DNA of 64,000 nucleotides from Lichtheimia corymbifera B2541 (taxonomy: Eukaryota; Mucoromycota; Mucoromycetes; Mucorales; Lichtheimiaceae): NCBI GenBank assembly GCA_000697475.1, contig JNEU01001176.1, positions 167,533 to 231,532 of the forward strand, read 5' to 3'. The translations under genes were made by a program, and so were the position numbers. Shown here in pieces: positions 25,224 through 51,890 of the stretch. The notes under the pieces were generated by a model that saw only the letters and a list, made by a program, of their open reading frames with translations, did not search any database and had not been told where the DNA came from. Each line of letters starts with the position of its first letter. The stretch's first letter is position 1.

Positions 25224-26262
25224 ATGCATTCTCTATCCGATAGGATTAACCCTTCCGATCCTGGCTCTCGGCTTTGTTACACAAACAAGCTCCTCTTCAG
25301 CATCTTTAGCTCTATCAGGGATCACCCAATGTCACCACCAGCCAAAGTGAAATCAGGTCGACCTCTTGATTTTTTCCTTTCGACGAGGCTGGTGGTGATA
25401 TTGGGTGAATCTGAGAATGGCCACGACGATCGTGAAACTTGCACCCAAGGTGCGCTTGACCACGGTGAGCAACTTTGTTCGATTGAATGCCCCACGCTTC
25501 ATTGTAAAGTTTAGAGATACAGACATCTTTAGGTTTTTACATATGCTGTGACCATGATGCTATATGTTGAGTGCTTTTTGTTCATTGTCAAGTAGGTAGA
25601 CCCCGATAGAGCGGAAGATGCGCAGTGGCGTGCTTGTGTGACACAGCTCATTTGCATGATACTTCACAATGAACAAACACCACTTATCATAAGCATCACG
25701 CTTTTCAGCATATGTAAAAACGAGGAACTGCATTTATCTATAAGCTTTACAATGAAACATGGGATCTTTCATAGAACAATATTGCTCGTCGTAGTAGAGC
25801 GCACCTTGTCAGTCATGTTTGACGATCACGCTTGCCAATCCTCGATACATCCACGTTTACGCTTTTACATATGCTGAAAAGCATGATGCTTATGATAAGT
25901 GGTGTTTGTTCATTGTGAAGTATCATGCAAATGAGCTGTGTCACACAAGCACGCCACTGCGCATCTTCCGCTCTATCGGGGTCTACCTACTTGACAATGA
26001 ACAAAAAGCACTCAACATATAGCATCATGGTCACAGCATATGTAAAAACCTAAAGATGTCTGTATCTCTAAACTTTACAATGAAGCGTGGGGTCTTCAAT
26101 CGAACAAAGTTGCTTGTCGGGGTGAAGCGCACCTTGGGTGCAAGTTTCACGATCGTCGTGGCCAATCCCAAATTTCGCGTTAATGGCGTCTTTATGTTTT
26201 CAGATGATGTAAGCGTGATGCTATATGAAAAGTAGTTTTTGGTCATTGTCAATCGCCTCTCT
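25224..26262. repeat. Foldback repeat cluster, region 1
   Basis: A cluster of the foldback family. 25320-25400 holds a short inverted centre (CACCACCAGCC ... GGCTGGTGGTG). 25419-26163 is a long palindrome described separately. The outer part continues to about 26262, where block B begins. Copies of the roughly 90-bp core occur at about 25430-25515 (plus), 25740-25830 (minus) and 26075-26160 (minus). Confidence 0.8.
25419..26163. repeat. Long inverted repeat, arms about 305 bp, nearly identical
   Basis: Arms 25419-25722 and 25858-26163 are reverse complements with only a handful of differences by eye; for example the stretch around the TTTGCATGATACTTCACAA segment is identical over more than 130 bp except for one base. 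The loop of about 135 bp carries one core copy in reverse orientation. Transcribed, it would form a long hairpin RNA. Confidence 0.85.
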
Positions 26263-27290
26263 CATATAAAAGCCAAAGATGCAGAAGAATTTGATGGTCC
26301 CACCAAACCCAGGGACAAGAGTTGCCGAGTCGATCCTATTGGTGGATTGTGCATGAATGAACATTTTCCCCTATTCGCATGTAGTAAAGTCCGCTTATGA
26401 TGATGCGTAGGGTATGGTCCGTTCTTATATAAGATTGCATAAGATAGCGTTAGCTGGAAATTGCCATAAGTAATCATGGTATGTTAATGTATTCGGGCCA
26501 TCGCAGCTCACACTTTTCTTCTTTAACACAATGAATTTATAAGCCTACAATGGACCACCAAGCTTATGTTGTAACAAGCACAATGCTAGACATTGTACTC
26601 TCGAGTTTATTAACTTTGCATTACAAACATTAGAGGAAACCCGTTGCCTTTACTCTAGAGCAAATGGCTCTTTATACAAGGGTGTAAACGATCCAATCGC
26701 TTTTCCAGGCCTTCAAATTCATGTTCCCACTTTCGATCCAGAAACCAATATGTGGTCCACTTTCTGCGCATATGTGCTGATAGTACGATACCCTTCTAAA
26801 TATTGTACTGGACCCAATCTTCATTAAATGAAGAGGTCGAAGCATAGTACATGGTAGTATAGATGTTTATCAAATAAAGACCATAAAGGAAGACCATTGT
26901 AGATTACAAGATACGGGTGGATCGTATAAGAATAAACAGGGGATAACTATGTAACTGTATTCTTAGCTGTTGTTGTCATCAACATCCTCCATCCACGCGA
27001 AATAGTTGCTGCATGTATTGTCTCGCGTGTTCCAATATCATCCATGGTTGTAAAGCACCTTGTCTCAAACGATATAAACCCCTCGTCAGTTCCATTTAAC
27101 CCATCATCATCCCTAGCCGTATCCACGTAGTATGATCCATCCTTCCTGCTGACGACACGCCAAGTAACCAAAGCAACATTCCTGGATTCCTTTCTCATCG
27201 CTGTACTTGGTTGCAACCATCCATCATTCCAATATTGCTGCTGATCCATTTCCATCCGACTGTTGGTCAACCTCTTTCTTGGTCATCTTC
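26230..27290. repeat. Dispersed block B, copy 1
   Basis: Matches 50260-51260 in the same orientation, with moderate divergence; shared stretches include GGTCCGTTCTTATATAAG and AAGATAGCGTTAGCTGGAAA. It follows the foldback cluster and precedes block C in both places, so the order is conserved. Confidence 0.8.
26941..27290 (-). pseudogene. Broken frame conserved in block B
   Basis: A minus-strand frame holds TWRVVSRKDGSYYVDT and runs to about 26947. The same region in the second copy (about 51260-50960) keeps similar peptide pieces (TWRVVSKEE) but in shifted frames because of single-base indels. This suggests an old gene carried in the element that is now inactive in at least one copy. I do not recognise the protein. 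Confidence 0.35.
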
Positions 27291-27299
27291 ATCGCATCT

Positions 27300-28060
27300 C
27301 AACTAGGTGAACGTTGCTTGTATTGAGGTGTACCTTGGTATGGCATCATCCATAGGAGACGGTATGTAGTGAAAGCAAGTTGATGCACGTAAATAAAACT
27401 GCCTCTGACAATGTCTATCCACTTTTCACGTAAAAAAGGCTGTAAGGCAAGTTGCTGCAAGTAAAGAATGCTGTTTAAGATGATCGAGTGAAGACCTTGC
27501 GAATAGCAACTGCTGTTAGGTTTGGTCGTGGCAGAGCGTGTGCAAGAGCGTGTGTTGGACAAGATCGTGAACGCTGTTTGAGACAATGGAATATAGTCAT
27601 TGCTAATATCAACTGCTGGAATGAACGTCCCTTTGTTTGGTCGTGGAAGAGGAGTATACAAGAGAACGTGTAGTATCAGGAAACGCGGGTGTTGTAGTGG
27701 GGTGCACACGCCATGGAACTTGCCATTCAGTCAAAAACAATCGGATCAAGGCAGTTGTAGCAATGACATGATGGGTTGAAGCAGGACAATTGTTCGCAGC
27801 TGGTAGTTGTAGTTAAATGGAGAAACAGTTGAGAATGGAGGGGCAAGAGACAAGAGTTGAGAGTGGAAGAAGTGGGAAATTTAAAAAGGGCAGGCATTGC
27901 CCTACAAATCCATGCACACTATAATTAATCCATGACCTTGATTGCCTCTCTCGAACCTGAAACTTTCACACAAGATGCTCTTCGGCATGCTGACCAACTT
28001 TGTCTTAATAAAGAACCCATGCTTCATTCAAAAATTTTGAATAGGAGGGTATAATGTGGG
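27300..28060. repeat. Dispersed block C, copy 1
   Basis: 27640-28060 is almost identical to 46775-47180 (for example GGAAACGCGGGTGTT, CACACGCCATGGAACTTGCC) and more diverged from 51290-51890. The near identity of the first pair suggests recent duplication or gene conversion. An internal TATA-like/AATTAATCC stretch leads into the tandem core units. Confidence 0.85.
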
Positions 28061-28920
28061 ATTGACTATGATGGATGGAAATTGGGAAAGCGCCGGATTT
28101 ACGATTTATCGATGCAGTATGTATTTTCTTGGGATCGCCCATTTTGAACTTGAAACTTGGTCAGAAGGTTCGCTGAGTCATGCTGATCAACTCCATTCAT
28201 TTTAAAATCGCATGTTTCATTATGATGATTTTATGAATCGGGCGGCCCAAATATAGGGGAGACGATGGATGGACGAAACGCAAGTAGGGTGCATAGTGCA
28301 CCCCCCCGCCGTTGTCCTCCTCCATCGTGAAACTTGGTCAGACCGTGGGCTGCGACATGTTTATCAACTCCATTCATATTAAAGTCGCAGGCTTCATTGT
28401 GAGAAATAAAATGGGGGCGTCCGAGAATGAAAGGACGGGTATATATATAGGGTGGACGTCTCATAATGCCCATTTCGAACCTGAAAATTTCACACAAGAT
28501 GCTCTTGGACACGCTGATTAACTTTGTTATAATGAACACCTCACGCTTCATTTGAAAATCTTGAATGGGAGGGTGTAATGTGGGGTTTACTATGCCGGAC
28601 GGAAATTCCGCACCCGTCCAAATTGATGAAATATCGATTACTATGCATTACCTTGGGATTTCCTCTTTCGAACATGAAACTTTGTAAGAAGGTTCTCTGA
28701 GTCATGCTGATCAACTCTATTCATATCAAAACTGCACGCTTCATTTTGAGAACTTTGAATGCAAGCGGCCCAAATATAGGAGAGATGATGGATGATCGGC
28801 GGGAACGTCCCGAGATTGCCCACTTCCATCGTGAAACGTGCACATCAGATGCTGTCGACCACGACTAGTATCTTTATTCTCAAAGACCTCACGCTTCATT
28901 TTTAAACTTTCCATAAACAG
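27945..28920 (+). repeat. Tandem core units of about 150-190 bp, array 1
   Basis: Six units start at about 27952, 28147, 28322, 28475, 28668 and 28827. Each opens with GAACCTGAAACTT-like sequence and closes with CACGCTTCATT-like sequence, then has a variable spacer. The opening 90 bp is homologous to the arms of the foldback elements. Confidence 0.75.
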
Positions 28921-28929
28921 ATACTTCAT

Positions 28930-30300
28930 GTTTTACCGATATACAATAAGCGCGATGGAGCTGTTTGCTGCTGAATGATTGTGTCAAGAACGCTATAGGC
29001 AAGCTGATGAGCTGGGTGAAATGACACGTGGACACGTCGTGGTTGCACACGCCACTGACAAATTGCTATACATAAATGGGATGATGGTTGCCTTTAGAAA
29101 GGTTCGTAAACAGCATCCAATCAACAAGGTATATCAATGCAATTGGTTTGCACGCGCATCTATCACGGATGAGTGGTCTTTGATAGGGGTCACACATGGT
29201 TGCTCTAGCTGAAGAGATCATTCATGCAAGATGAGCTTTATTGATCCACTACTACTGCCACTACTACTGCTCCTATGTATAAGTCTATAGGTCGGTTGAG
29301 AATTGTGTGTGGCATAGGATCACGTGAAACACACGCCTGTGTGGATGAACACCTCCCTGGCAACAGCCTGATCCACATGACAATAGAGCTTGGTTGGTAT
29401 GGAGAAAGTGCCTGTTGAGTATATCCTTATTGCCTCATGCGATCGTTGCCATGCTGATTGGCTCGCTGCAGCTCGTCAATAGCCTTCTGCAATCGCTTCC
29501 AAAAGTCGACGTACGCAGCCGTAGCATTGCTCACTCGTGTCATTGGAGGTGGATAGAAGGGCGACGCTACCCATTGCTGACGCATGAAGCGAATAGACAA
29601 CCTTAGTCAAGGACTTGGATTACGATTCCGTTTGCTCATTAGCTCCACAAGCAAGAGAGACGAGTTCCTGGCAAAAGGATACAATGCATGATGCTCTGCG
29701 TTTCAAACGAGATCCCCGACTTAGCATCGCCCACTACAACTGTCCTTGGTAGATTATGTTTATTCCACGTCAAATTAAATAATGATACATTTGATTTCTA
29801 CTACTAGCAATGTTATTAATGTGGCACCTGGTCTTCCTGTACAATGTTCTCCTTGCTGTTGCTTTTGCTTCTCCTTTTGTAATTGTGTTTGTGTTTGATA
29901 ATTGAGATGTGTCATCTAAAATAAAGTCACTAAAGTTAGATATCATTAAAATGTAACGCATTGATTGATATACGTACGTGATCAGGCTCTCTGCTGTAGC
30001 TGTATCATTGATTGATGTCCAACTCCATCGCCAGACTTGTTTTTCGCCCCAGGGTCTTACATGAAGCCCAACTCCTTTGCCAGACTTGTTTTCGCCCTAT
30101 ATACTTGGGGTCTTACGCATGCTTCACCAAACTTGTCGGCTGTGCCTATAGATAACCATCATAAGTAAACCTTCCTTCAGCAATGCTCGCAACGATACTA
30201 TAGTTACATGATAATGATATAGTAGTCCGCTCCATTGAGAGTGCCTTGTTTGTATGATGATAGAAATTGCTTTGTCGCAGGAAGGTCATAAACCGTTGTC
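28930..30300. other. Gene-poor stretch with fragments of coding character
   Basis: A minus-strand frame at 29585-29427 starts with ATG and encodes 52 residues (holds YVDFWKRLQKAIDELQRANQ); it could be a last exon. A minus-strand frame at about 29790-29639 contains LPRTVVVGDAKSGISFE, which resembles the start of dynamin-type GTPase domains but has an altered P-loop. The two are not joined by a clear intron. I treat them as unproven gene remnants. Confidence 0.3.
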
Positions 30301-30305
30301 GTTGC

Positions 30306-30850
30306 CATATGCTTTTGTGATGTTCGCTTGTGATGTTCTTTGTGATGATGTTCGCTTGTGATGTGCCTTTGTGATGTTCTTTGTGATGATGTTTGCTTGT
30401 GATGTGCCTTTGTGATGTGCCTTTGTGATGTGCCTTTGTGATGTGCCTTTGTGATGTTCTTGTGTGATGTTCTTGTGTGATGTTCTTGTGTGATGTGCTT
30501 GTGTGATGATGTTCTTTTCTGATATTCTTTTCTGATATTCTTTTCTGATGATATTCTTTTCTGATGATATTCTTTTCTGATGATGTTCTTTTCTGATGAT
30601 GTTCTTTTCTGATGTTCTTTTCTGATGTTCTTTTCTGATGATGTTCTTTTCTGATGTTCTTTTCTGATGATGTTCTTTTCTGATATTCTTTTTTGATATT
30701 CTTTTCTGATGTTCTTTTCTGATGTTCTTTTGTGATGATCTTCTTTTCTGATATTCTTTTCTGATGATGTTCTTTTCTGATATGCTTTTGTGGTGATGTT
30801 CTTTGTTGTAATGCTTTGTTGTAATGCTTTGTTGTAATGCTTTGTTGATT
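30306..30850. repeat. Minisatellite of 13-16 bp units
   Basis: Units of TGATGTTCTTTTC (13 bp) with longer TGATGATGTTCTTTTC variants repeat for about 330 bp, flanked on the left by the related TGTGATGTGCCTT and on the right by GTAATGCTTTGTT repeats. Because 13 is not a multiple of three, all frames stay open and a long Lys/His-rich frame appears on the minus strand; I do not consider it a gene. Confidence 0.9.
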
Positions 30851-31209
30851 GAATGCCTATTAAACAAAGGCTGCTGGTTAGTTTCGTGGATGTATACCTA
30901 CTTGATCACTCACATACCATTTTGCCTTGTGGCTTGTTGTATAATAGGATTCCACTAGTGGTGTTGACGTGCGTGTGCTTTCGTACGATCGAGTTCCTGA
31001 CATGGTGGCTCCATACCAGATGTAACTTAATGAATGTGATAGTTGTCCATGCTTGCGATGATTATCTCAATATAGAGATCGTCCAACGGCAATGCCACTT
31101 CCAAAGTCGTGCCTCTCATTCCATCCGTTTGATTGCTTTGTGTTGTGTTCCTTGGTAAATTGATTGCCGCCAATATATGCTCACGCGAACTCCACCAAAA
31201 ATGTGTTGA

Positions 31210-32075
31210 CCCATGGAATAACTTCGAAAGAGAAGACCCGTGCCAACATCGATAATCTTTGTCATCCGCATTGGATCCACCACCAAAGAAAGTATACGGA
31301 GCCCTTGCCGATAGAGAAAGCTTGTATCAGTAAAGAAAGGACATGTGCCAAAATGGAAGTTGTTGTCATCCGCTTCGATTCGACCACCAGTAAAATAGAG
31401 AGATCTCACGCCAATAGAGACACTTGCACCAAGTTGATAGTCTTGTCATCCGCATCGGCTTCACCACCAATAATATGAAGAGAGAGCTCTTGCCAATAGA
31501 GAAAGGACGTGTGCCAAATTGATAGTCTTGTCATCCGCATCGGCTTCACCACCAAATAGAAGAGAGGACTTGTGCCAAGTTGATAGTCTCGTCATCCGCA
31601 TCGGCTTCGCCACCAATAAAAAGAAAAGAGAGCTCTTGCCAATAGAGAAAGGACGTTTGCCAAACTGATAGTCTTGTCATCCGCATCGTCTTTCCACCAA
31701 ATAGAAGAGAGGACTTGTGCCAAATTGATAGTCTCGTCATCCGCATCGGCTTCACCACCAATAAAAAGAAAAGAGAGCTCTTGCCAATAGAGAAAGGACG
31801 TGTGCCAAACTGATAGCCTTGTCATCCGCATCGTCTTCACCACCAATAAATGAAAGAGAGGACTTGTGCCAAGTTGATAGTCTTTGTCACCCGCATCGGC
31901 TTCACCACCAAAATAGAAGAGAGGACTTGTGTGCCAAATTGGTAGTCTTGTCATCCCCATCGGCTTCACCACCAAAATAGTAGAGAGATGTCATGGCAAT
32001 AGAGAGGCATGTCCCAAATTGATAGTCCTTGTCATCCACGTCGGCTCCGCCACCGATAAAAAGAAAAGAGAACTC
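31210..32075. repeat. Minisatellite, about 11 units of variable length (about 55-105 bp)
   Basis: The core GTCATCCGCATCGGCTTCAC recurs at about 31261, 31367, 31445, 31531, 31590, 31677, 31737, 31820, 31887, 31951 and 32030, each followed by CACCAA and an AGAGAGGAC/CTTGCCAA spacer. Spacing varies. The minus strand reads as GGEADADDKTINLA-like peptides, but frames break between units. Confidence 0.85.
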
Positions 32076-32404
32076 TTCCTCAAAAGAGCAGGAGCCCTCA
32101 CTCTGGCTTCAGGAAGAACCCACAACACCAGAAACAGAACGTGACATCCCAGTACACCAGTGCATCTATAAATGAAGGAATCAAGCATGCAGGATTTACA
32201 CCCTTCAAGAGAATCCTACACACAACGCCTACCACTTCGAGAGCGCTACCATGTGGACCACGTACCATTCCAGGACCCAAGCCCAAACTACGATGCCCGT
32301 GCAAGTCGATGCCTTGATGCCTTTTTTTTCAAGTACCCACTTCAAAGATGATTACCGCTTGTGCCCAAACACCATCATCCAAAAATGCAAGGGCGGCCAA
32401 ACTA

Positions 32405-32869
32405 TGTAGGGATGTATCACAGCATATATACATACACTATGACCCACCCCCACAATAAAAGACAAAAGATGATTAGCATAATGTATCCAAGCAGTGTCAC
32501 TGACTTCAACTTGCCTTTTCAAGTCCAATCCCATGCCCCAGTGGGTAACAAGATGATGATGAGTGAATCGCCCTTTGGCTCTTGATCCACGAGTAGGCGA
32601 CACCGCAAATGCTTTGTGACTTAATCGTAGCCGGGTTACAAGGGAACGGAACAGTACGTCATCCCCATGGTATCGCCCTAAAAGTGATAGGCGTTGACGT
32701 GAGGACTCTCCCGTCGGGATACCTACATGTTGATCCTTCCGTATGTGCGAGCAGCTGGCATATATAAAGGGCTGAGAAGCACGCCTGAATCCGGGTTGGG
32801 GTTTTCCATCCACCAAGCTCTCTCGCAACTCTTGCTGAGATCCTCATGCCACCGGAATGGTCATCTACA
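32405..32869. mobile_element. Possible solo LTR
   Basis: The segment starts TGTAG and ends CTACA, has a TATATAAAG at 32761-32769 placed as an LTR promoter would be, and is about 465 bp. The flanking 5-bp sequences do not match (AACTA and TAATA), so there is no target-site duplication, and no internal retroelement genes are present. The ID is tentative. Confidence 0.25.
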
Positions 32870-32934
32870 TAATATACATGTGAGTCATGCTGTCATTGGA
32901 TCATTGTGCACATAGTATATGTAACTTACTATCT

Positions 32935-35021
32935 TTAGTCTTCAAAGACTACTGCATCATATGGGTCTTCATCATCAAAGCCCAAAATTTCTCCGAGGAT
33001 ATCATCCCCACCCATGACTAAAGCACCAGAGGTTAGTATCATATAGAGTCCAATCTCCATACTGAGTAGGTATACTTACATGAATCAGATCCAGCCGCAT
33101 ATTCTTGGATGATGGATGATGGTGGTGCGGGCTGTTCTGCTGCCGATGACGGCAATGCGGATGATGATGGTGATGACGGTGGTAATGGCGGTGGTGATGA
33201 TGATATTAATGGAGGTGGTAGTGGTGGCGGTGATGATGATGAGGTATATGATGGCGGTAGTGATGGTGATAGCAAAAACGCCAAAAAGGATGATGGTAAT
33301 GGTGATGATGATGGTGGTGGTGGTGATGATGATGATGATGATGATGATGCTAATGCTGATGCTGATGATAATAATGATGATAATAATGATGGCGATGTTG
33401 GTGTTGGTGATGCTAATGATGGTGGTTGTGGTGGCGGTATTAATGGTGGTGGTCTTGGCGGTGATGGTGGTGGTCTTTGAAGCGGTGGTGGTGGTGTGTC
33501 CCCACTTGGTCTCTGCCATCTCAGGCGACTTCGAGGTCGAAATGCTGGCCTTCGGAACTGCAACCGTTGTCGGTTATTGCTGCTACCTGTGCTTGACGCA
33601 ACAGGTATTGCTGATGCTGCTGCTGGTGCTGATGCTGCTGCAACTACTGCTGCTACTACTACTTCCGGTGTGGCCTCCGGATAGATGATGGGTGGTGATG
33701 GGATCGCCTGGGTATACAAAATCGGTGGAGGTGGAGGTGGCAATGGCACTTGTGGCGGTGGTGGCGGTGGTGGTGGTGGCAATGCCGCTTGTGGTGGTGG
33801 TGAAGATGGTGGCGATCCCATCAAAACGTCTTGCAAGTCTTGCACTTGTGGCTCTGGGGCACCTACGTCCCCTATAAAGTTAAAAAAAAGATGAGTTAAT
33901 ATAAAACAATGTCATTTGGTATCAATTCCAATATGCAATGCACTTACCATTCTGCACGATTTCTCGTGGTTCTTCTGGCGTACCAGGTACTGCATCGGGT
34001 ATCTCGGTGTCTGGCTCATAAATGTCGAGCGTGCTCAGAGCTTGGCCTACAAAGAAAATCAGTTAGTATCAAAGTTTTGTTGAAAAGACGTTCATAAAGA
34101 ATACTTACAAAGCTCGTCAATGGATGCAGATGATGATGCATATGATGATGATGATGATGATGATGATGCGGATGAGGATGAAGATGATGCAGATGAAGAT
34201 GATGCAGATGAAGATGATGCAGATGAAGACGATGCCGATGAGGATGAAGAAGATGCAGATGAAGATGAAGAAGATGCAGATGACGATGAAGATGCAGATG
34301 AAGATGAAGAAGATGCAGATGACGATGAAGAAGATGCAGATGACGATGAAGAAGATGCAGATGCTGATGATGATGATGATGCTGATGCTGATGCTGACGT
34401 TGTTGATGTAGTAGTAGTAGCAGAATTTGGTGCCGGCAAGCCGCGCACATGCTGCATGGCTTTATGCATAGCCATTCCTCGAAGCAACTTTGGTGGAGAC
34501 CGTGTGCTTGTAACTTGCTTGGATGGTTTGAACAAATCCACAGCTGATGAAGAGTAGTTAACTACTGCATCACCCTCCAAGGCCGACATGTTGCCATGAT
34601 GACGGGGCACTTGTACTACTGGTCGTGTAGAAAACAACATACCAGGATACTCGCAGGCTTGCGCCTTGCAGCGAACCACTGGAGCTACCCAGGGTTGGTT
34701 GGTCAAAACAACAGGGCTAGTAGGCACCTGTGTCGAATCACCACTTACCTCTCGATCCGCCCGCAACGGCACGCCGGCCGAGCAGTCAGAATTGCAAGCA
34801 ATCGGGACGTGAGTCGACCGATTGTTGGGGCGCGAAAGCCCCCACCGAACCAACGGGAAAACGACACCGAAAAAGAAGGCAATTGGCATCACCCACATGA
34901 AGTGTACTTCTTCGAAAAGGTTGCACTTCAATGCGGTGAGCACGAGCACGAGGGGGAAAAAGCGAGCCGGTTCTTGATGAACTTGAGATGGCATTGCGGA
35001 AAGAGGAGGAACTGTCTCCAT
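32935..35021 (-). CDS. Ser/Ala- and Pro-rich disordered protein
   Basis: Four exons join in phase: 35021-34109, 34046-33948, 33871-33080 and 33017-32935, giving 628 residues. Exon 1 encodes a hydrophobic stretch (about residues 35-60) and then about 90 residues of almost pure Ser/Ala. Exon 3 begins with runs of up to nine Pro and continues with Pro/Ser runs. The C-terminus is acidic (DDILGEILGFDDEDPYD). Poly-Pro runs of this kind bind profilin or SH3/WW domains in actin regulators, but no WH2 or FH2 domain is visible, so no function is assigned. Consistent phases and splice sites support a real gene despite the low complexity; the N-terminal 100 residues are the least certain part. Confidence 0.6.
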
Positions 35022-35116
35022 GGAAACTCAAAGTCAACTTAAGTACACCCCGCCCCACTGAGTGCCATTTCACCCCCTCTCGATCTTACTTTGCAAATGG
35101 CACATTACCAAGTCGA

Positions 35117-35375
35117 TTTACGTGTAGAATTGTCTGTAGATCACGATACTGTAGTTTATTTTAATAAACGGGGTGTTTTGGAAGCAAACGGAAGCGTCAA
35201 AGTTTCATAGCAACCATAGTGCAGGTTGCCCTTCTTCCTTTATTTCTCTTTATACATGGCGTGTCATGGAGACTTTTTACGTGTAGAATGGTGCGTACAA
35301 CTCGAAAATGTGCTTTATTACACCAAAAAGCAGAGCTACTGGATGCAACGAGCGCGTCAAAGCTCTATAGCTACC
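35117..35375. repeat. Tandem duplication, period about 159 bp
   Basis: 35117-35215 and 35276-35375 share an opening ACGTGTAGAAT and a closing segment (GCGTCAAAG...ATAGC.ACCA) with diverged middles. It lies just upstream of the disordered-protein gene. Confidence 0.5.
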
Positions 35376-37120
35376 ACGTTATATAGAGGAAAATCTCTAG
35401 AATTCCAGTATGAGACTTGACATGATACCAGCAGGTACTTTCAGATCCAGTGATCATTTTTTTTCTCACAAAGGCACCATAGTTGTTTATAGAAATTTCG
35501 AGTAATGATTGATTCAATGACGCGTCTTCATATAACAGTATGCCTTGTAGGCCTGTGCTCGATGGTTTGGCTATCAAAACCAGACGTCGACATGTAGGGA
35601 GCTTGTTTTAAAAAGCACTTTTCTGAAGCCATCATCCACCACTAACAAACAACACTTTTGAAATAGCAATAATCACCATCACAGCCAAAGCTTGAGAGAA
35701 ATCATAAAACTGCCAATATATCCAAAATCTGCGTGATCAAATGGAACGCCTTGTTGAGACAAAAAGAATGATTATCAGCTTGCCTGGAAGTAGACACTGA
35801 CAAACTTCAGCCTAAAAGGTCGCATCAATATCAATCTCACTCACCTCAAGGCTCATACGTACCTTGACAGGCAACAGTTTCCTATGCCCTCGTCATTTTT
35901 GTTCTCACAAAGGCATTATATTTACTTGTACAATTATCGATACGGGCTATCACAGGCGGACGTTAGTTGCAGGAAAGGGGAAGGTGCTATTATGCGTCCT
36001 CCACCAATAGGATTGTCCCTTGAAGTTCAGACTTCTGGTACACAAACACGCCCCGCTGCATCGTTGGCTCTCTCAGGATCTATATACTTGACAATGAGCA
36101 AAGGCCACTTTACATGTAGCATCATGCTTATAGCATAGTAAAACATAAGACGGTTATATCTTAAAACCTTACAATGAAGCGTGAATAGCATCCTTGTGAT
36201 GTGCTTAAATAAAATGGATAACAAGCCTTCCTGTTTTATCACTGGATACCACAACCCATCAATGACCTTTGGTAAGTCTCAAGGTTATCTTTATGTGTTT
36301 CCTAACTCATGGATTCATCTAACATGTAGCTCACCTCTTTGCTTTACCGCTTGGTGTCCTCATTGCTGCTTAATGACATTTGGCTATGTTTCCTTGATGG
36401 ACCTTGTGGTAGGTATAGCTATCATTTATATCCCTCTTCGTTTGTATATTATGGGTGCATACGTTATTAAAAGGATACCTTGATACTGCTATTGATCCAT
36501 CCCAGAGACAGCACACGTTTATGCTAGCTACGGCACGGTCACTTATTGGCGGAAGAGACCTTTCCTTTAGCTTTACTTTGCAAAACATCTTTAGTGATAA
36601 AAGGTATCAATCCCTTAATTCATCAAAGCAAAAAGCGAATCCTAGTTGCCGTACTCAACATTCTGTTTTGTTCTGTTTATTACTAATCTGCCCCCTGACA
36701 ATGCGTAAATGGGGTTGAATCCCAGTCTATTAATTCAGAGTTCCCTGACGGCCCCATGGTAGGGACGTGAAATCGATTCAATGGTCATGCACAGCTAACT
36801 TATTTTAGTAGGCATCGATAGCCGGGTTCTCCGAAAATGGGTGGCCAAAGCCAGCAAACAACGCGAACCAAGCCTTTGGTGTCGGAAATTCTTTAACAGT
36901 GTAAGACCTTGTTTTCCAGAATTGATCATAGTAGTATTTTGGTAATCGGGGTATTGATCATGATAGAGTGATCTCATGAGAAGCTTGAGGTAGCAGGATA
37001 TTGCATCATGGTATGGAATGTAAAGAAACGTAAAGAAACTGGGCGGGCATTCCAGGATGGGGTTGTCGGTGTGTTGTTTCAAAGTGATGTCATTCATGCG
37101 TCAAACGGCATGAAACAGAA
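35376..37120. other. Intergenic region
   Basis: Apart from the decayed repeat at 36.0-36.2 kb no gene is supported. An open stretch at 36214-36483 has a good GTAAGT...TAG intron (about 36272-36330) but gives only about 30 residues when spliced, so I leave it out. Confidence 0.4.
35990..36185. repeat. Degenerate foldback-family copy
   Basis: Recognisable pieces are CACAAACACGCCCC, CTTGACAATGAGCAAAGG, GTAGCATCATGCTTATAGCAT and CTTACAATGAAGCGTG, in the same order as in the 25 kb and 49 kb copies. Much of the unit is lost or changed. Confidence 0.6.
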
Positions 37121-37127
37121 TATAAAA
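37121..37127 (+). promoter_or_regulatory. TATA box for RTC3
   Basis: TATAAAA lies 68-74 nt upstream of the RTC3 ATG. Confidence 0.5.
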
Positions 37128-37194
37128 ATCCCAAGTGCATCTTCCCCCAAGACAATAGCTTTCTCATCAAACAACAAGAAGAAAACACAACACA

Positions 37195-42300: not shown

Positions 42301-42990
42301 TTGGTTGTGCAATTCCTCAACCACCCCAGTATGGCTGCTCGTCAATGGGCTGTATGTATCTTTGACGATTTTGTGGAATACCTTGGCCCTGTTTCTTTCA
42401 ACTACTCCAACTACTTTATGCAAAGCATGGTCAATGCTCTTCAAGATCCTGCTCCCGAAGTGCGACAAGCTGCTGCTTATGGTCTTGGTGTGTGTGGTCA
42501 ATTTGGTGGTCCTCAATATGCCGATGTGTGTGCTGGTTCGCTCAATGCACTCTTTGGCATCATCAATGCACCCAACGCTCGTGATGAATCCGTAGTGTTC
42601 GTAACTGAAAATGCCATTTCTGCCGTATCCAAGATCTGCAAGTACAATAGCAGCAAGTTTGCTTTGGATGAAGTCTTGTCGGCTTGGTTTGCATCCCTTC
42701 CCATCATCTACGATGAACTTGAAGCTATCAGCGTATACACTTATCTTTTGGAATTGCTGGAGCAGAACCATCCTAGCATCTTGGGTCAAAACAACGCAAA
42801 CATCCCCAACTTGGTCAAGATTTTCACTGAGGTCCTCGCAGCTGATATTCTTCAACCCGAACTTACTGGCCGCGTTGTTAACAGTCTCAAGGTTATCCTT
42901 GGTGGTGTGGATGATGCTGCTCGATCACAGCTTTGGAATGCTATTCCTGTCGACACCAGAGCCATCCTTCAAGAGAAGGGTTACGTCTAG
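39311..42990 (+). CDS. PSE1: Karyopherin beta-3 / importin-5 (Kap121/Pse1)
   Basis: Seven exons join in phase: 39311-39387, 39455-39557, 39619-39841, 39904-40079, 40156-40254, 40314-40634 and 40699-42990, giving 1096 residues (yeast Kap121 has 1089). HEAT repeats run throughout. Typical points are LLSPDNAQRSAAETQL at the N-terminus, LLTLAEAKTSMVRK, YIPQMLQSGEWQQRRGALMA, HPRVRYAACNALGQMSTDFA and an acidic insert (EDDEQAMEDEITEED). It imports ribosomal proteins, histones and many other cargoes and acts in mitotic spindle regulation in yeast. The last exon is long (2.3 kb) and codon use is strongly biased toward GCT/CTT/AAG, which suggests high expression. The minus strand stays open over much of it as a by-product. 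Confidence 0.96.
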
Positions 42991-43348
42991 ATTTCTTTTT
43001 TTTCTTTTCTCTTACTTTTTTCCTCCCTCTCCCAACTTGTCATCATATAACACACTGCGCATCATTTCTTCTCTTTGTCTCTCGCTCTTGGTTCTGTAAT
43101 ACAATCTAATTGGCCCCTATCGTATTCCCCAAACTCACATTTTGCTCCCTTTTGCCCTTTATAACTACACACACACACTCACTCTCACAACAGCAATCTT
43201 TATTATCAATCATAAAACATTCACCCTGCTTTACAGTACGCTTAAGAATGACCATTTTATTGTTTGATCTGTTAACTATATGCAACACCACACAAGGCAG
43301 CGTGGTGGAATTTGATTTACTGGAAAACAGCGTACATACGCTATATAG

Positions 43349-43561
43349 CTAAACGGCCATTATGTCAAGCATCAATATTATAACGATGACAAGCGCCTCG
43401 GCACGACATACGGACCGATCGACCACGGCGAATATAGTGATCTGAGCTTTTCGTTGTGACGATGGCTGTACACGTGGGGTGTAGCCGTTGATCATGTAAG
43501 CACCATTTGCATATATAAAGTAAACCACGTCATTGTTGACAGCATATCTATTTCCACTCAT
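43349..43561 (-). CDS. Candidate small membrane protein
   Basis: A single-exon frame of 70 residues from ATG 43561 to a TAG at 43349, with a hydrophobic C-terminus (ALVIVIILMLDIM) that could be a tail anchor. It is divergent from the P450 gene and convergent with PSE1. Support is only composition and an ATG, so it may be chance. Confidence 0.28.
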   Translation of the reverse strand: MSGNRYAVNNDVVYFIYANGAYMINGYTPRVQPSSQRKAQITIFAVVDRSVCRAEALVIVIILMLDIMAV

Positions 43562-43778
43562 AGCCACGTTCGACAAAAAAAGGAACAATGGAATGAGGCG
43601 TTGTTGGTTATAGCAGGGAGAAGGCGAGATTTTGTAAGCGTCAATTGCATCGTTTGGGGAAAAACTGACCGCATCACATTGCCCCAGCCATTCCTCACCG
43701 TAAATTTAACCGGCCAGTTTCGGGGAGAATCTCATTTATACTTCTTTCTTTCCCACTTTCACTTTTTGACACGACCTA

Positions 43779-45988
43779 ATGGACACTGAAACTATCATTC
43801 ATACATTTGAAAGCTCTCTTCAGTATATCACTGAAACAATCCACAACCGCGAACGCATGCAAAAAGTGGGTGCTGTAGCAGCCATCTCAGTAGCAACATA
43901 TTTTGTCACTTCGGTAAGCATCCATGGCATGATCCGTGAATACGAAAATCAATAACACAGATGATGTATCATGATAGAAACTCTACGACGCCTTCCTTGG
44001 CCCCCTAAGTGGTATTCCTGGCCCTTTGACTATGAAGTTTGTGGATGCTCGCTTCTCGGGTAAAATGGAGAAAACCCCTGGAACAAGGCAAGTCCGCGTA
44101 TAGCATCCCTTCCACCATTGATCATGCCGTTGCTGACTTGAACTTTAGCTATCGCTCGTTCATGAAATGGCAAAATGAGTATGGACAAATCGTGCGAATT
44201 GGCCCAAAGCATATCTCGGTTTCCAGCAAGGAAATGCTTAAGCAGGTCCTTCAAAAGGATGATCTCACTAAGGGTCCTGCCTATGAGCGTCTTCATTGTA
44301 AGTGCTACATACTGTTTTCCATTAAGGAGATGTATACTAACAAGGACGATCGGTTTGTGCAGTGCATGGCGGAATCAACATGTTCAATACGGTCAATAAG
44401 GATTTTCATAAGCAGCGGGTAACACAACAAATGATACGATCTGTGAAACGCTCCTCATTTTAATTGCATAACCTTCCCACAGAGACGGGTCGTGTCCCCT
44501 GCCTTTTCCGTCAAGTACCTTAATTCGCTGGAACCCTACATGACTGACATGACAGAGGCGTTTTTACGTCGTATGGATAAGGATATTGAAGAGACGCGTG
44601 GGTCTGGTGACTATGGCGTCGTGGATATTTGGGCGTTGCTGCAATATCTTGCATTGGTACGCATGGTTTGACATGATATACCGGCCAATGGGAATACCAC
44701 ACATGTTCTGATCTTCAAAATACACTCGTACAGGACATCATCGGTGAGACTGCTTTTGGACGTACATTCAATATGCTTGAAGGCAATGATCATCTCGTGC
44801 CAAGGAATATCACCAAGACAATGGAAACGGGCACTTATGTACGTGACACTACTACAATATGCTTTACATACGCCATTTTCTTATAAGGTTTCCTTAGATC
44901 ATCGCACATCCCATCCTCGGTACAATCAAGGCATTGTTTTCTCTCGGTGATGTGATGTCAGCTGTGCATGAATTGCAAGCAGTATGTAGCAATGTCAACT
45001 CAGCTTCTTGTCATCGTGGGATTAATTGGTTGTATCATCCATGTTGTAGTTTATGAAAAAGATCATCATCGAGCGTATTGAAGGAGGCGAAAAGGCAAGA
45101 CGCAATGACATTCTTCAAATTTTGATCGATACACAACAAGCAAAGGAAGCCGATGATCGCCTTACTGCCCACGCTATTGCTCACGAGACCGTTCTCTTTT
45201 TGATTGCTGGTTCTGAAACAACAAGCAATACCACTGGATTCGCCATTTATGAATTGTTGAAGAACCCACACACTTTGGATGCTTTGCGTGCAGAAATCGA
45301 TGCCGTTCCCATGGAGCCAGGTCAAAAGTATTTCCATCACGAGCAACTGAAGCAGTAAGTGATTTCTCCAATACTCGCATAGTATACCCATCACTCTTCT
45401 GACAACATTTTTGTATTATAGCCTTCCTTATCTTAATGCTGTTATCGACGAGACCTTGCGGTTGGATCCCATTAGTGTCAATGGTATGGAACGACGTGCC
45501 GATCATGATATTGTGTTGGGTGGCAATCTTGTTGTACCAAAAGGAGTGAGTATATTGAGACCCATAATATATATGTATGATTGACTGAACAAAACGATCC
45601 ACATAGACTGTCGTTCATTGCAATTCTTACCATGCCCATATCAACCCTGACTACTGGCCTGAACCTACCAAGTTTATCCCTGAGAGATGGCTTGAAGGAT
45701 CTTCCATTCCTGCAGATACCAGTGCATTCTTCCCCTACAGTATTGGGTAAGTATAGGCATGTTAATATTTATTCTACGATAAGCTCATCATGATTGGTAT
45801 TCAGCTCAAGAAACTGCATTGGCAAAGGATTTGCACAGCAAGAGATGCGCTTATCCATTGCCCATATTGTCAAGCTCTATGACATCCAGCCAATTCCTCA
45901 AGAGATGGAAGACGCTAAGGAACGACGATCATTTGTTACACTAGCAGTTAAAAAGAACAGCTTCAAGATTCAAGCTAAGCGTAGATAA
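43779..45988 (+). CDS. Cytochrome P450 monooxygenase
   Basis: Eleven exons join in phase: 43779-43913, 43978-44087, 44149-44297, 44363-44418, 44483-44656, 44734-44838, 44898-44981, 45050-45354, 45422-45545, 45607-45746 and 45805-45988, giving 521 residues. The intron after 44087 has a GC donor (AAG|GCAAGT). An N-terminal hydrophobic segment (about 31-45) anchors it to the endoplasmic reticulum. The I-helix oxygen-binding motif AGSETT, the K-helix ETLR (ExxR), the PERW motif and the haem loop PYSIGSRNCIGKG (Cys about 465) are present. Substrate cannot be told; the general look is of fungal CYP families that oxidise lipids, alkanes or xenobiotics. The canonical Phe of the haem motif is replaced by Tyr. 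Confidence 0.93.
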
Positions 45989-46531
45989 ATCCATACATAC
46001 ATACATATGCTATATATCATTCTGTCATATCTGCATGAGTAAACCATCTTCATCTTCTGTCATATACTAATAAATGGATGCTTATCTTACAAGATCCAAA
46101 TCACAAGAGAGGAACGTGCGTTGTGAAGCTAAAGCGACCCTTTAATTGAACATCATTCACAAGAGCTAGACTGCGAGGTACAATGAATTGCTCTGATGGG
46201 GAAATCATACATCAGATTGGGAATATTCTATCTTTTGGGAGTGCATTGTGCAAAGGTGGAAGAATAGACGTGAGGTAGCACTCGACACGTGATGGGCATT
46301 ATATGCAGGGTGGATCAATCTATGAAGTTGCATTTACAAGGCTGACAGGTTGCATAAAGGATAGTAGCTGCCATCGAATAGCGTGTGAAGCACGATAATA
46401 GCTTGCAAGAATCGTTCAAGATGATAGCATCAAGCACAATGAAAAAGCTGACAAGGGATCCGTAAGAACAATGGCTCTTTATCCACGCATCATATATATC
46501 CACTTTCCCTGCATCCCATACGCCAAACCAG
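45989..46531. other. Intergenic region after the P450
   Basis: Contains the P450 3' end (AATAAATGG at about 46070) and no supported gene. Confidence 0.5.
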
Positions 46532-46589
46532 TATCCATATCCATATCCATATCCATATCCATATCCATATCTATATCCATATCCATATG
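46532..46589. repeat. Hexanucleotide microsatellite (CCATAT)n
   Basis: About nine CCATAT units with one CTATAT variant. Confidence 0.95.
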
Positions 46590-46599
46590 AGTCGTATGT

Positions 46600-47200
46600 A
46601 TTGAAAGCAAGTTGCTACATGAACATAAAGTTGGTTCTCTATAATGGCTATATGCTGTTCACGTGAAAAGGCCGTAACACAGGTTGCTGCAAGTAGAGAA
46701 CGCTGCTCGCGACAATGGAGTGAAAACCTCGCTAATAGTAACAGCTGCATTGAATGCTGCTACGATTGGAAGAGGAGTGTACAAGAGAACGTGCAGTGTC
46801 AGGAAACGCGGGTGTTATAGTGGGGTGCACACGCCATGGAACTTGCCATTCAGTCAAAAACAATCGGATCAAGGCAGTTGTAGCAATGACATGATGGGTT
46901 GAAGCAGGACAATTGTTCGCAGCTGGTAGTTGTAGTTGAATGGAGAAACAGTTGAGAATGGAGGGGCAAGAGACAAGAGTTGAGAGTGGAAGAAGTGGGA
47001 AATTTAAAAAGGGCAGGCATTGCCCTACAAATCCATGCACACTATAATTAATCCATGACCTTAATTGCCTCTCTCGAACCTGAAACTTTCACACAAGATG
47101 CTCTTAGGCATGCTGATCAACTTTGTTTTAATAAAGAACCCTCACTTCATTTAAAAATTTTGAATGGGAGGGTATAATGTGGGGTTTACATGGGCGGTCG
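46600..47200. repeat. Dispersed block C, copy 2
   Basis: 46775-47180 is almost identical to 27640-28060, including the CACACGCCATGGAACTTGCC stretch and the following core unit. The left part (46600-46770) is more diverged. Confidence 0.85.
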
Positions 47201-47700
47201 GAAATGGGGTACGCGCCGGATTTATGATTTATCGAAGTAGTATGTATTAACTTGGGATTGCCCATTTCGATCCTGAAACTTGGTCAGAAGGTTCGCTGCG
47301 GCATGCTGATCACTTGCATTCATTTAAAAATCGCAGGCTTCACTATAAAAGTTTTGAATGCGGGCGACCCCAAATGTAGGATGGACGATGACAAAAGTAA
47401 GTTCGACGCTCCCTAAGCCTGAGATCGCCCATCTCGAGCCTGAAAATTTCATACAAGGTACTTTCGACCGCGACGAGCAATTTCGTCCTCATAAAGATGC
47501 TACGCTTCATTATGAAGATTTTGAATGGCAGCGTCTAAATGTTTGGACGAGAACATAGATAAGATGTACGGGCCGCGCCCGCCGATATTGGCCATCCCGA
47601 ACATGAAACTTGGTCAGAAGGTGCTCTCGGCCACGTTGATCACTTTGGTCTCATAAAGACATTACACTTCATTATGACAATTTGAAAAAACACGCGCCTT
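47080..47700 (+). repeat. Tandem core units of about 150-185 bp, array 2
   Basis: Four units start at about 47086, 47270, 47449 and 47597. The first two match units at 27952 and 28147 in order, so this array was duplicated together with block C. Confidence 0.75.
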
Positions 47701-47875
47701 TATGTTTTACCTATGCTGTGATGAGAGTGATGATATATGAGAAATGGTGTTTGTTCATTGTGAAGCATCATGCAAATGAGCCGTGTTACACAAACGCGTC
47801 CCTACGCATCTTCGGCTCTATCAGAGCCTACCTACTTAACAATGAACAAAGGTCACCTTTCATATAGCATTATGG

Positions 47876-48243
47876 TTACAGCATATGTAAAACATAAAGA
47901 TGCCCATAACTAAAAATTCTACAAAGAAACGTGGGGCCTTCAATCGAACAAAGTTGCTCGTCGGGGTGAAGCGCACCTTGGGTGCAAGTTTCACGATCGT
48001 CGTGGCCGATCTCAGATTCAGCCAATGTCACCACCAGCCAAAGTGAATCGAGGTCGACCTCTTGAATTTTTTTTGACGAGACTGGTGGTAACATTGGCTG
48101 AATCTGAGATCGGCCACGACGATCGTGAAACTTGCACCCAAGGTGCGCTTCACCCCGACGAGCAACTTTGTTCGATTGAAGGCCCCACGTTTCTTTGTAG
48201 AATTTTTAGTTATGGGCATCTTTATGTTTTACATATGCTTTAA
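47876..48243. repeat. Palindrome, arms about 160 bp, practically identical
   Basis: Arms 47876-48037 and 48082-48243 are reverse complements; the innermost 150 bp show no mismatch by eye. The spacer of about 44 bp contains GGTCGACCTC and a T-run. The arms carry the core unit and the GGTGCGCTTCACCCCGACGA segment found in other copies. Confidence 0.9.
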
Positions 48244-49205
48244 GCGTGATGCTATATGACAAGCGGTCTTTGTTCATTGTCAAGTAGGTAGACCCCGATA
48301 GAGCCGAAGATGCAGACGGACTTCTTTGTGCAACACAGCTCATTTGCATGATACTTCACAATGAACAAACACCACTTGCCATATAGCATCAGGGTTTCAG
48401 CATATGTAAAAACGTAAAAGCGCCTGTATCTAGGATTGGCAAGCTGTATTGTGAAACATGATTGACAAGGTGCGCTCGACCACGATGAGCAATATTGTTC
48501 TATGAAAGAGTCCATGTTCCATTGTAAAGTTTAGAGATAAATGCACTTTCTCGTTTATACATATGCTGAAAAGCATGATGCTATATGACAAGTGATGTTT
48601 GTTCATTGACAAGTAGCTTGACCCTGATAGGGCAAAAGATGCGCAGGGGCGTGCTTGTGCAACACAGCTCATTTGCATGATACTTCACAATGAACAAACA
48701 TCACTAGTCATATATAGCATCATGGTTTCAGCATATGTAAAAACGTAAAACTGTCTGTATCTAGGATGGGCAAGCTGTATCGTGAAACATGATTGACAAG
48801 GTGCGCTCGACCACGACGAGCAATATTGGTCTATGAAAGAGCCCATGTTTCATTGTAAAGTTTAGAGATAAATGCACTTTTTCATTTTTACATATGATAA
48901 AAAGCATTATGCTATATGACAAGTGGCGTTTGTTCATTGTCAAGTAGCTCGACCCTGATAGAGCGGAAGATGCGCAGGGGCGTGCATGTGTAATACAGTT
49001 CATTTGCATGATACTTCACAATGATCAAACACCAGTTGTCATATAGCATCATGTTTTTCAGCATATGCAAAAACGTAAATGTGCCTGTATCTCTCAACTT
49101 TACAATCAAACATGGGCTCTTTCATAGAACTATATTGCTCGTCGTGGTCGAGCGCACCTTGTCAATCATGTTTCACGATCAAGCTTGCCAATCCTAGATA
49201 CAGGC
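48232..49205. repeat. Tandem array, period about 330 bp, about three units
   Basis: The landmark CATTTGCATGATACTTCACA recurs at 48341, 48670 and 49001 (spacings 329 and 331). Each unit has a core copy and a module with terminal inverted repeats (see findings). A further unit in reverse orientation follows at 49205-49380. Confidence 0.85.
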
Positions 49206-49379
49206 ACTTCTACGTTTTTACATATGCTGAAAGCGTGATGCTATATGACAAGTGATGTTTGTTCATTGTGAAGTATCATGCAAATGAGCTGTGTTACACA
49301 TGCACGCCAGTGTGCATCTTCCGCTCTATTGGGGTCTACCTACTTGATAATGAACAAACACCACTTGTTATATAGCATT

Positions 49380-49740
49380 ATGGTTACAGCATATGTAAAA
49401 CATAAAGGTGCCCATCACCAAAAATTTCACAAAGAAACGTGGGGTCTTCAGTCGAACAAAGTTACCCGTCGGGGTGAAGCGCACCTTGGGTGCAAGTTTC
49501 ACGATCGCCGTGGCCGATCTCAGATTTCGCAATGTCACCACCAGCCAAAGTGAACCTGGGTCGACCTCTTGATTTTTTTTTCGACTTTGGCTGGTGGCGA
49601 CATTGCGTGAATCTGAGATCGGCCACGGCGATCGTGAAACTTGCACCCAAGGTGCGCTTCACCCCGACGAGCAACTTTGTTCGATTGAAGACCCCACGTT
49701 TCATTGTAAAGTTTAGAGATACAGGCACCTTTATTTTTTT
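49380..49740. repeat. Palindrome, arms about 155-175 bp
   Basis: Arms about 49380-49562 and 49581-49740 pair around a short T-rich spacer. The centre extends to ACCACCAGCCAAAGT / ACTTTGGCTGGTGGC. Arms differ at a few positions (GTTACCC versus GTTGCTC), unlike the 48.06 kb palindrome. Confidence 0.85.
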
Positions 49741-50310
49741 ACTATGCTGTAAGCGTGATGCTATATGTCAAGTGGTCTTTGTTCATTGTCAAGTAGGTAG
49801 ACCCCAATAGAACGGAAAATGCACACTGGCGTGCATGTGCAACACAGCTCATTTGCATGATACTTCACAATGAACAAACACCACTTGCCATATAGCATCA
49901 TGGTTTCAGCATATGTAAAAACGTAAAAGCGCCTGTATCTCTAAACTTTACAATGAAACGTGGGATCTTCGATAGAACAATATTGCTCGTCGGGGTGAAG
50001 CGCACCTTGTGTGCAAGTTTCACGATCAACCTCGCCAACCCAGATTTCGCAATGTTACCACCAGCCAAAGTGGATCCGGGTGTCAACCTCTTTGGCTGGT
50101 AGCGGCGTCGGGTGTATCTTGGATTGACCATGATGGAACATGAGGTTGGGCAGTATATGCTTTCGACCCTGACGAGCAACCTTGTTCTATTAAAGATCCC
50201 GCGCTTCATTGTAAAGTTCTGAGTTAATGGCGTCTTTATGTTTTTAGTATGAGATATAAGCGTGATGCTATATGAAAGGAGGCCTTTGTTCATTGTCAAT
50301 TGCCACGCTT
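49741..50310. repeat. Foldback-family units leading into block B
   Basis: Contains another inverted-repeat module (about 49743-49915), a reverse core copy (about 49955-50035), a decayed centre (CCAGCCAAAG ... CTTTGGCTGG at 50058-50098) and a core copy at about 50145-50225. The order matches 25.86-26.26 kb. Confidence 0.75.
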
Positions 50311-51260
50311 ATATTACAGTCAAAGATCCAGAAGTACCTGTTTGTGCAACCAAGTCGAAGGATCAATCCTATTGGTTGAGGCATGCATGATCGATCCTTC
50401 TCCTGTCTGCTTATAGAAAGGTCCGCCTATGATGGTGCGTACGGAATGGTCCGTTCTTATATAAGGTTGCATAAGATAGCGTTAGCTGGAAATGGTCATA
50501 GGTAAGCATGGTGTGTTAACGTGCTCGTGTCACCACAACTCACTTTTTCTTGAACATAAAGAATTAAGCTTACAACAGACCACCAACAAGTTTATATAAC
50601 ATACACAATGTTGAACATCATCGCTCTCGCGTTTATTATCTTTGCAATACAAGTGTTTGATAAAACTCACTAACTTTCACCTATAACAAAAGCATCTTGA
50701 TATAAATGCTCCAACCCCCGTTTTTCAAATATCATGTTCCCCTTTTCGATCCATAAACCAATATGTGTTTCACATCCTGCACATCATATGCGCTAATAGT
50801 ACGATACCCTTCTGAATACAGTGTTTGACCCCATCTTCATTCAGTGAAAACGTCGCAGCATAGCACATGGTAGTATGGGTGTTTATAAAGTGAAGATGAT
50901 AAAAGGATACGGATGAATTATATACTAAGGGTCAACAGGGATAACTATGTCGTTGTGTTCTTGGCTGCTGCATGTATCGTCTTGAGTACTCCGATGTCAA
51001 CCATGGCTGTAAAACAACCTTTCGTCAAAGATATAAGCCCCTTCGCCAACTCAATCTAATCCATCGTGTATCCTCGGCTGTATCCACATGTATGATCCAT
51101 TCTTCTTTACTGACGACGCGCCAGGTAACCAAAGGAGCATTCCAGATTTCTCTCTCGCTTGATTGCATCCATCGTCATAGCCATTGCAAGTTCGATACTG
51201 CTGCTCATCCTTTTCCATTCGGCTCCCTTTTCCTTGGTCACTTTCCATCGTAGCTCAACC
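50260..51260. repeat. Dispersed block B, copy 2
   Basis: Same orientation and order as 26230-27290, more diverged; includes the GGTCCGTTCTTATATAAG stretch and the broken frame at about 50960-51260. Confidence 0.8.
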
Positions 51261-51289
51261 AGGTGAAGATTGCTTGTATTGCAGTGTAC

Positions 51290-51890
51290 TTGATAGTTGA
51301 TATGGCATCATCCACAGGGCGTCGTATGCATCCAAGGCAAGTTGCTACACGTAAATAAAGTTGTCTTCTACACAATGTCTATCTGCTGTCCACGTAGAAG
51401 AAGGCTGCGAGGCTGTGAACGCTGTTTGAGACAATGGAGAATAGATATTGCTAATGATAACTGCTGGATGAACGCCGTTACGATTGGTCGTAGTAGAGGA
51501 GCGCACAAGAGATGGTGTGGGTCAATAAACGAGGTTGTTGTAGTAGAATGTACACCCCAAGGAGTTGCCATTCAGTCAAAGAAAATCAAATCAAGACGGT
51601 TGTAGGATTGACATGATGGGTTGAAGCAGGACAATCGTTTGCAGGTGATAGTTGTAGTTGAATGGGGCAACAGTTGAGAATGGGAAGAAGCGGGAGATAA
51701 AGTGGGAGTGGAAGAGCTGGAAATTAAATGAGGCAGTCAGACATATCCATATACACTGATATCAATGCATGATATTGGGATTGCCTGCCACGAACCTCAA
51801 ACTTTCACACAACGTACTATCGATATGCTGATCAACTTTGTATTAATAAAGAGCCCACATTTCATTTGAAGATTTTGAACGGGAAGGCTT
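51290..51890. repeat. Dispersed block C, copy 3 (diverged)
   Basis: Matches 27330-28020 and 46610-47150 with many changes; landmarks are GGCATCATCCA, GACATGATGGGTTGAAGCAG and a final core unit at about 51790. Confidence 0.75.

Follow-up and report, generated by a model that had tools for sequence, protein, structure and literature searches.

A dispersed modular palindromic repeat of Lichtheimia corymbifera as the probable niche of site-specific retroelements coding for an ORF1p-like protein

Two blocks of a palindromic repeat in the window

We analysed a 64,000-nucleotide stretch of the genome of Lichtheimia corymbifera B2541 (contig JNEU01001176.1, here C432; G000:C432:167533-231532, within a 34.98-Mb genome of 432 contigs), hereafter the window, which holds two blocks of a non-coding palindromic repeat built on a short core; at other loci of the genome this core is the insertion site of a poly(A)-tailed retroelement. 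A sequence-only reading of the window had described about 25 copies of one core of roughly 90 bp. A single homologous core does underlie all layouts, with 24 core-family copies in the window by nhmmer profile search (E <= 1e-3), and its length was measured at 76-80 bp rather than 90 bp. The motif GATCGTGAAACTT occurs 22 times in the window with up to two mismatches, against 2.0 +/- 1.5 in shuffled sequence (0 of 100 shuffles reached 22), and CACGTTTCATTG 10 times with at most one mismatch, against 0.54 in shuffles. Copies were mapped at each of the places that reading had named (25.3-26.2, 27.95-28.9, 47.08-47.65, 47.9-50.2 and 51.8 kb), and the decayed pieces it had reported near 4.4 and 36 kb were located at 4.40-4.52 kb (core and loop fragments, 4396-4516, minus strand, from blastn with the modules) and 36.08-36.18 kb (hp and core fragment, 36076-36183, minus strand). 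The repeat zone reaches beyond the claimed limits, as long flank modules are present in both blocks (26.25-27.95, 46.13-47.07 and 50.3-51.79 kb) and the second block, block B, starts near 46126.

The first block opens with a loop module, a palindromic spacer (25327-25416, plus strand, 87% identical to window positions 49521-49621), and a core (25428-25505, plus, 91% to the reference core at 49630-49707), followed by a copy of the hp module, a 225-bp imperfect palindrome (25514-25722, plus, 88%). On the minus strand there follow a core (25749-25827, 78%), a second hp module (25844-26068, 87%) and a further core (26077-26154, 97%) that forms an arm of a palindrome spanning 25408-26174 (86.7%). 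Beyond a partial hp module (26190-26252, plus, 84%) lie the non-coding flank modules U1 and U2 that served as reference (26290-27950, plus), and then a tandem array of diverged cores in the order coreC, coreB, coreB, coreC, coreB, core (27953-28900, plus), spaced at about 150-190 bp.

Block B begins with an outer flank, T, that is also found at other cluster ends (46126-46580, plus; homology to loci L014, L019, L023, L024 and L027), and continues with a shortened U2 (46581-47073, plus, 76-91%) and a coreC/coreB array (47076-47645, plus). The longest palindrome of the window follows, an imperfect 2.4-kb structure of core, hp and loop modules (47604-50022; 2,473 columns of self inverted alignment at 78.6% identity). 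It includes two centres in which inverted cores surround a loop, one at 47921-48198 (cores 97% each, loop 84%, arms identical) and the other, which served as reference, at 49429-49707; here GATCGTGAAACTT (49630-49642, plus) marks the retroelement target, unoccupied in this copy. The reference hp module (49716-49940, plus) is followed by a core, half loop, half core and partial hp (49950-50299), U1 and U2 modules (50363-51786, plus, 73-77%) and a terminal coreC (51792-51870, plus), with the block ending near 51887. Cores thus lie on both strands and in foldback arms, as had been proposed, and both tandem periods of the sequence-only reading are real: units of the coreC/coreB arrays recur every 150-190 bp, and a unit of 331 bp, given there as about 330 bp, is present in 2.6 copies at 48226-49092. 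Sequence with an inverted partner in the same block makes up 48% of 46126-51890 and 30% of 25271-28957, compared with 0% in two 5.7-kb control stretches.

Among the surroundings of the blocks, a cytochrome P450 gene at 43.8-46.0 kb (one exon tested) directly precedes block B, and copper amine oxidase frames directly follow it on the minus strand (51.95-53.8 kb). Between the two blocks, minisatellites with units of 13/16 bp and 60-145 bp were observed at 30312-30847 and 31334-31987, and simple and compound GAT-rich repeats with overlapping open frames at 33160-34408. Among named proteins, those most similar to the importin-beta-3 frame of the window come from Mucorales close to Lichtheimia (Zychaea, 81%; Dichotomocladium, 87% over 71%).

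A modular family dispersed through the genome

Copies outside the window are present in large number: a core 30-mer allowing up to three mismatches has 1,100 matches in the genome (547 forward and 553 reverse; reversed control 0), the exact 16-mer target TGCAAGTTTCACGATC has 772 (control 0), and a 35-base U2 motif allowing up to three mismatches has 636 across many contigs (control 0). Blastn mapping covered the window and 20 loci, each of 10 kb or less. It placed seven modules, namely the core (78 bp), coreB, coreC, hp, the loop (101 bp) and the flanks U1 and U2, one recurrent order being U1, U2, coreC/coreB array, hp, reversed core, loop, core. Clusters consist of flank modules, core arrays, hairpin modules and core-loop-core centres with inverted cores, joined one after another. 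At the 95,143 bp of repeat per 78 core 30-mers seen in the window and these 20 loci, the family extrapolates to about 1.34 Mb, or 3.8% of the genome, a ratio that may be biased since the sampled loci were chosen by similarity to a core-loop-core query. The published repeat content of L. corymbifera is given as 4.7% of the assembly by Repbase/Censor (PMC4133162), a figure for all reported repeats that this one family may rival. The repeat also breaks assemblies.

The arrangement of the clusters bears on how the repeat may have spread. If it were a non-autonomous, FB- or Galileo-like foldback DNA transposon moved by an unseen transposase, with the retroelements a side issue, one could account for its inverted arms with internal tandem units, its presence on many contigs and the roughly 91% similarity of central cores between loci (U2 modules are about 70-75% alike). 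Yet clusters mirrored on both sides (L011, L025 and L026) stand beside others that run directly from flank to flank (block B, L019 and L024), the two kinds being about equally common among the maps examined. Cluster edges differ from locus to locus, apart from the outer flank T common to several, and no fixed outer termini were found across the 20 loci and the window. Neither a target duplication nor an empty site was seen at the cluster edges examined, and within the repeat itself neither a transposase frame nor any other long open frame came to light, no genome search with transposase families having been made. Because the ends differ and no target duplications were found, a foldback transposon family, as the sequence-only reading had suggested, is not demonstrated, and we consider it unlikely.

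A satellite-like, centromeric or subtelomeric DNA with palindromes produced by recombination alone would agree with the 331-bp and 150-190-bp tandem units, and 19 of about 100 listed exact core places fall, by eye, within 1.5 kb of a contig start. Contig ends are, however, expected where an assembler meets long palindromes; the U2 motifs are spread across many contigs, and the blocks of the window adjoin ordinary genes (P450 and copper amine oxidase). The tandem arrays are short (2.6 x 331 bp in the window) and stand amid mixed modules, rather than forming long head-to-tail arrays of one unit. A satellite origin is in our view very improbable.

The long palindromes also raise the alternative that the clusters give rise to long hairpin RNA for the RNA interference pathway, in silencing or heterochromatin, and that the palindromes are maintained for that role. 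The 2.4-kb palindrome of block B would suit such a function, as would the dicer-like and argonaute proteins predicted in L. corymbifera (PMC4133162). Against this, RNAalifold predicted no pairs in 100 of the 209 distinct cores, a result uninformative on long hairpins as the shuffled control likewise gave none, and core identity within one centre (median 0.92) is close to that between loci (0.91), with no sign of a tight pairing constraint. This alternative seems to us improbable. The same comparison was considered as a trace of local homogenisation of the arms (p 0.013), which was rejected; the loci had been picked for similarity.

Other identities for the core were tried and set aside. Rfam gave 12 matches in the window at E <= 5 and none at the gathering score; the best, MIR5274 (37.5 of 100 bits, at 49052-49234), is due to the palindrome, and a structured RNA gene was discarded. 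ARAGORN found no gene in the window, and a tRNA-like origin was likewise dropped. Translation of the central core's bottom strand gives an open frame (MKRGVFNRT...), yet stops interrupt 8 of 84 such frames, and diversity by codon position (0.112, 0.087 and 0.067) is highest at position 1, giving no sign of coding. No similar plasmid DNA was found. The sequence-only reading knew of no named element with this layout; consistent with this, Rfam returned no match at its gathering score, and no account of such a repeat or its retroelement was found in the literature as judged on titles and abstract openings. The family, its copy number and its layout are established, and it is apparently an unnamed, dispersed, non-coding, modular repeat of the Lichtheimia genome.

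A poly(A)-tailed retroelement occupies the core

What the sequence-only reading missed is a retroelement for which the core serves as insertion site; the window is without a copy and none is listed in its contig C432. The element was first seen at L009 and L028, where the repeat is interrupted by a poly(A)-tailed stretch of 1.3 kb with a single frame of about 400 codons. A genome search with this insert gave 25 matches, four of them full-length, and insert lengths are 1.29-1.32 kb, with a copy in C268 of 1.75 kb. Patterns for the 5' end and the 3' tail matched the genome 12 and 11 times, respectively (controls 0), and the adjoining sequence was read for every 3' tail and for all 5' ends but that of C408 (11 of 12). 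Each of the 11 5' ends read abuts AAGTTTC of a core, the site being AAGTTTCACGATC or a variant, as do 10 of the 11 3' ends. All seven copies with both ends read are flanked by target duplications of 13-16 bp (C335, C212, C381 and C276, 16 bp; C402, 15 bp; C268, 14 bp by eye; C286, 13 bp); the two leading A of these duplications may instead be part of the poly(A) tail. In C212 and C286 private variants of the target are repeated on both flanks, which makes an assembly artefact less likely. Eleven 3' ends in a core run on into the loop when C381 and the reverse-oriented copy in C268 are counted and C286 is not. The site and the target duplications of the insert are thereby established, and the insert combines, in the manner of R1 and R2, an exact site in a multicopy repeat with a poly(A) tail and a target duplication.

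Further arrangements were observed at the same target. A second end type occurs in L052 (341-501) and L054 (C308 and C221), where the partner core is interrupted by other sequence; its 3' end, ...TTTATCTATA, lacks poly(A) and abuts AAGTTTCACGATC, and its last 149 bases match six times in the genome, the end being the only part read. In C279, C334:52829, C353, C372, C387 and C395, CAG or AAG rather than TGC precedes AAGTTTCACGATC; these may be variants or junctions of further elements.

The occupied bases are also those that vary least. Across 300 distinct core-family copies aligned over their full length, no other window of 8 bases (69 in all) is as conserved as TGAAACTT, which has a mean majority of 0.953 and is exact in 213 of the copies; among the 100 copies below 75% identity its value is 0.949 against 0.651 at positions 13-69. 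Read plainly, the parasite sits where its host repeat is most constrained.

Between the target duplication and the ATG, the seven copies have 2 (C335), 3 (C402), 0 (C212), 2 (C286), 2 (C381), 0 (C276) and 2 (C268) nucleotides, and the element seems to have no 5' leader. Since the target end of each central core faces the loop, any insert in a central core has its 5' end on the hp side and its 3' end towards the loop, and at L009, L033, L040 and L058 coreC or U2 modules lie upstream of the insert in the same direction. A transcript initiated in the arm would enter the element in sense. Because the element starts at its ATG, co-transcription with the repeat is predicted, and the element probably uses transcripts of the repeat as R1 and R2 use those of ribosomal DNA (rDNA). 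Transcription of the repeat is here inferred, and a promoter inside the frame is also possible. A TATATAAG-like motif was observed in U1 of both blocks of the window and of L026, less clearly elsewhere.

A single ORF1p-like frame and the search for an enzyme donor

Three families of the element were read, at L009 (family 1), L040 (family 2, 54% identical) and L058 (family 3, 25%), and all three retain intact frames of about 370-400 codons despite 45-75% protein divergence. With a ratio of nonsynonymous to synonymous divergence (dN/dS) of 0.20 between families 1 and 2, a rough value, sequence comparison indicates that the frame is under coding constraint. Scores for zf-CCHC are 21.1, 20.7 and 25.1 bits in families 1 to 3 against a cut-off of 20.8, and the folded part of an AlphaFold2 model of family 1 matches proteins with two RRMs, namely Pub1 (E 3.4e-4, template modelling (TM) score 0.33) and Sex-lethal (E 3.9e-4, TM 0.56 to the target). 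RRM and CCHC domains together make up many ORF1 proteins (products of the first open reading frame) of long interspersed nuclear elements (LINEs). The protein thus appears ORF1p-like, with CCHC knuckles and predicted RRM-like folds. Over 79% of its length it matches a Lichtheimia corymbifera protein at 100% identity; 12 of its 13 matches are named, all from Lichtheimia, with several relatives in L. ornata, and every named match among the relatives of families 1 and 3 is likewise from this genus. This one frame is all that the three families encode, with neither reverse transcriptase (RT) nor endonuclease.

An enzyme donor was therefore sought elsewhere in the genome. Among the RVT_1 candidates scored, at most 100, none falls in the seven contigs of the duplication-flanked copies (C335, C402, C212, C286, C381, C276 and C268), and of five RVT_1 loci judged LINE-like by match length (C1, C32, C75, C93 and C115; contigs up to C136), none lies, by eye, near an exact target. 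The 3'-tail and 5'-end patterns marked no RT locus as an autonomous donor. Downstream of a U2 motif in C364 (189480-194832), at a distance of 3.3 kb and on the same strand, is a LINE-like frame of 1,122 codons with an endonuclease at 192790, which falls below the Pfam cut-off, and an RT at 194020. No exact target lies within some 29 kb of a near twin of this frame in C115. The C364 frame is a possible donor, to be taken as a lead only. The listed RVT_1 matches and loci L041-L050 also include Ty3-like pol frames, several of more than 1,000 codons and many at contig ends.

A dispersed repeat as a retroelement niche

Taken together, these findings suggest, with a probability that we put at about 0.6, that a modular Lichtheimia repeat serves as the niche of poly(A)-tailed, site-specific retroelements that code for an ORF1p-like protein and lack RT. 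Several points weigh against this. No RT-bearing element was found at the core site. The tail of C114 lies outside any core, the lone 3'-end exception, and C308 and C221 have common flanks and may be one event, which would leave 9 of 10 independent 3' ends. C286 departs from the orientation rule, being located in a coreB unit and facing away from the loop. The strength of the TGAAACTT conservation is uncertain, as the copies fall into a small number of deep subfamilies and the motif of the sequence-only reading served as seed for the profile. As for the protein, dS is saturated (2.1), so that the dN/dS of 0.20 is rough; the family 1 model is of low confidence (predicted local distance difference test, pLDDT, 62; predicted TM score, pTM, 0.44), and the best TM to any target is only 0.56.

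Under the niche reading, the repeat itself would most likely spread and rearrange through DNA-level duplication and recombination between palindromes. A putative endonuclease supplied in trans would nick GATCGTGAAACTT, the nicked 3' end would be extended on the poly(A) tail by target-primed reverse transcription, and the 13-16 bp duplication would result from insertion. The RNA source would likely be read-through transcription of the repeat arm, given the element's start at its own ATG and, in central cores, its constant orientation with the hp side behind it and the loop ahead. More tentatively, the parts could form a split, promoterless LINE system, in which a transcribed dispersed platform carries conserved ORF1p-only units at its most conserved site while RT and endonuclease act in trans; such a system would extend an R1/R2-like ecology beyond rDNA to an early-diverging fungus, where the genes of a LINE would be shared out among separate elements. 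If the niche reading holds, a dispersed non-rRNA repeat would be added to the few known hosts of LINE-type elements with strict site specificity, ORF1p would be retained by selection as a gene in its own right, and the parasite would seem to choose those bases of its host repeat that are under most constraint.

Comparison with known systems

The closest parallels are R1 and R2 of 28S rDNA and other site-specific LINEs, which share with the insert an exact site in a multicopy repeat, a target duplication and an apparent lack of an own promoter. Unlike in R1 and R2, the target here is a dispersed palindromic non-rRNA repeat, and the element has no RT or endonuclease, only an ORF1p-like protein. 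Mammalian HAL1, an ORF1-only LINE derivative, resembles the insert in having ORF1 without ORF2, a poly(A) tail and RT presumed to act in trans, whereas the insert is strictly site-specific, comprises three divergent intact families and has its 5' end at the ATG. The foldback (FB) and Galileo elements share long inverted arms with tandem subrepeats with the Lichtheimia repeat, in which, by contrast, no fixed termini or duplications were found and mirrored and direct clusters are mixed. Finally, Grem-LINE1 of Mucor centromeres is, like the insert, a mucoralean LINE bound to a particular genomic niche; in Lichtheimia that niche is dispersed and defined at the level of single bases, and its occupant is an element without RT.

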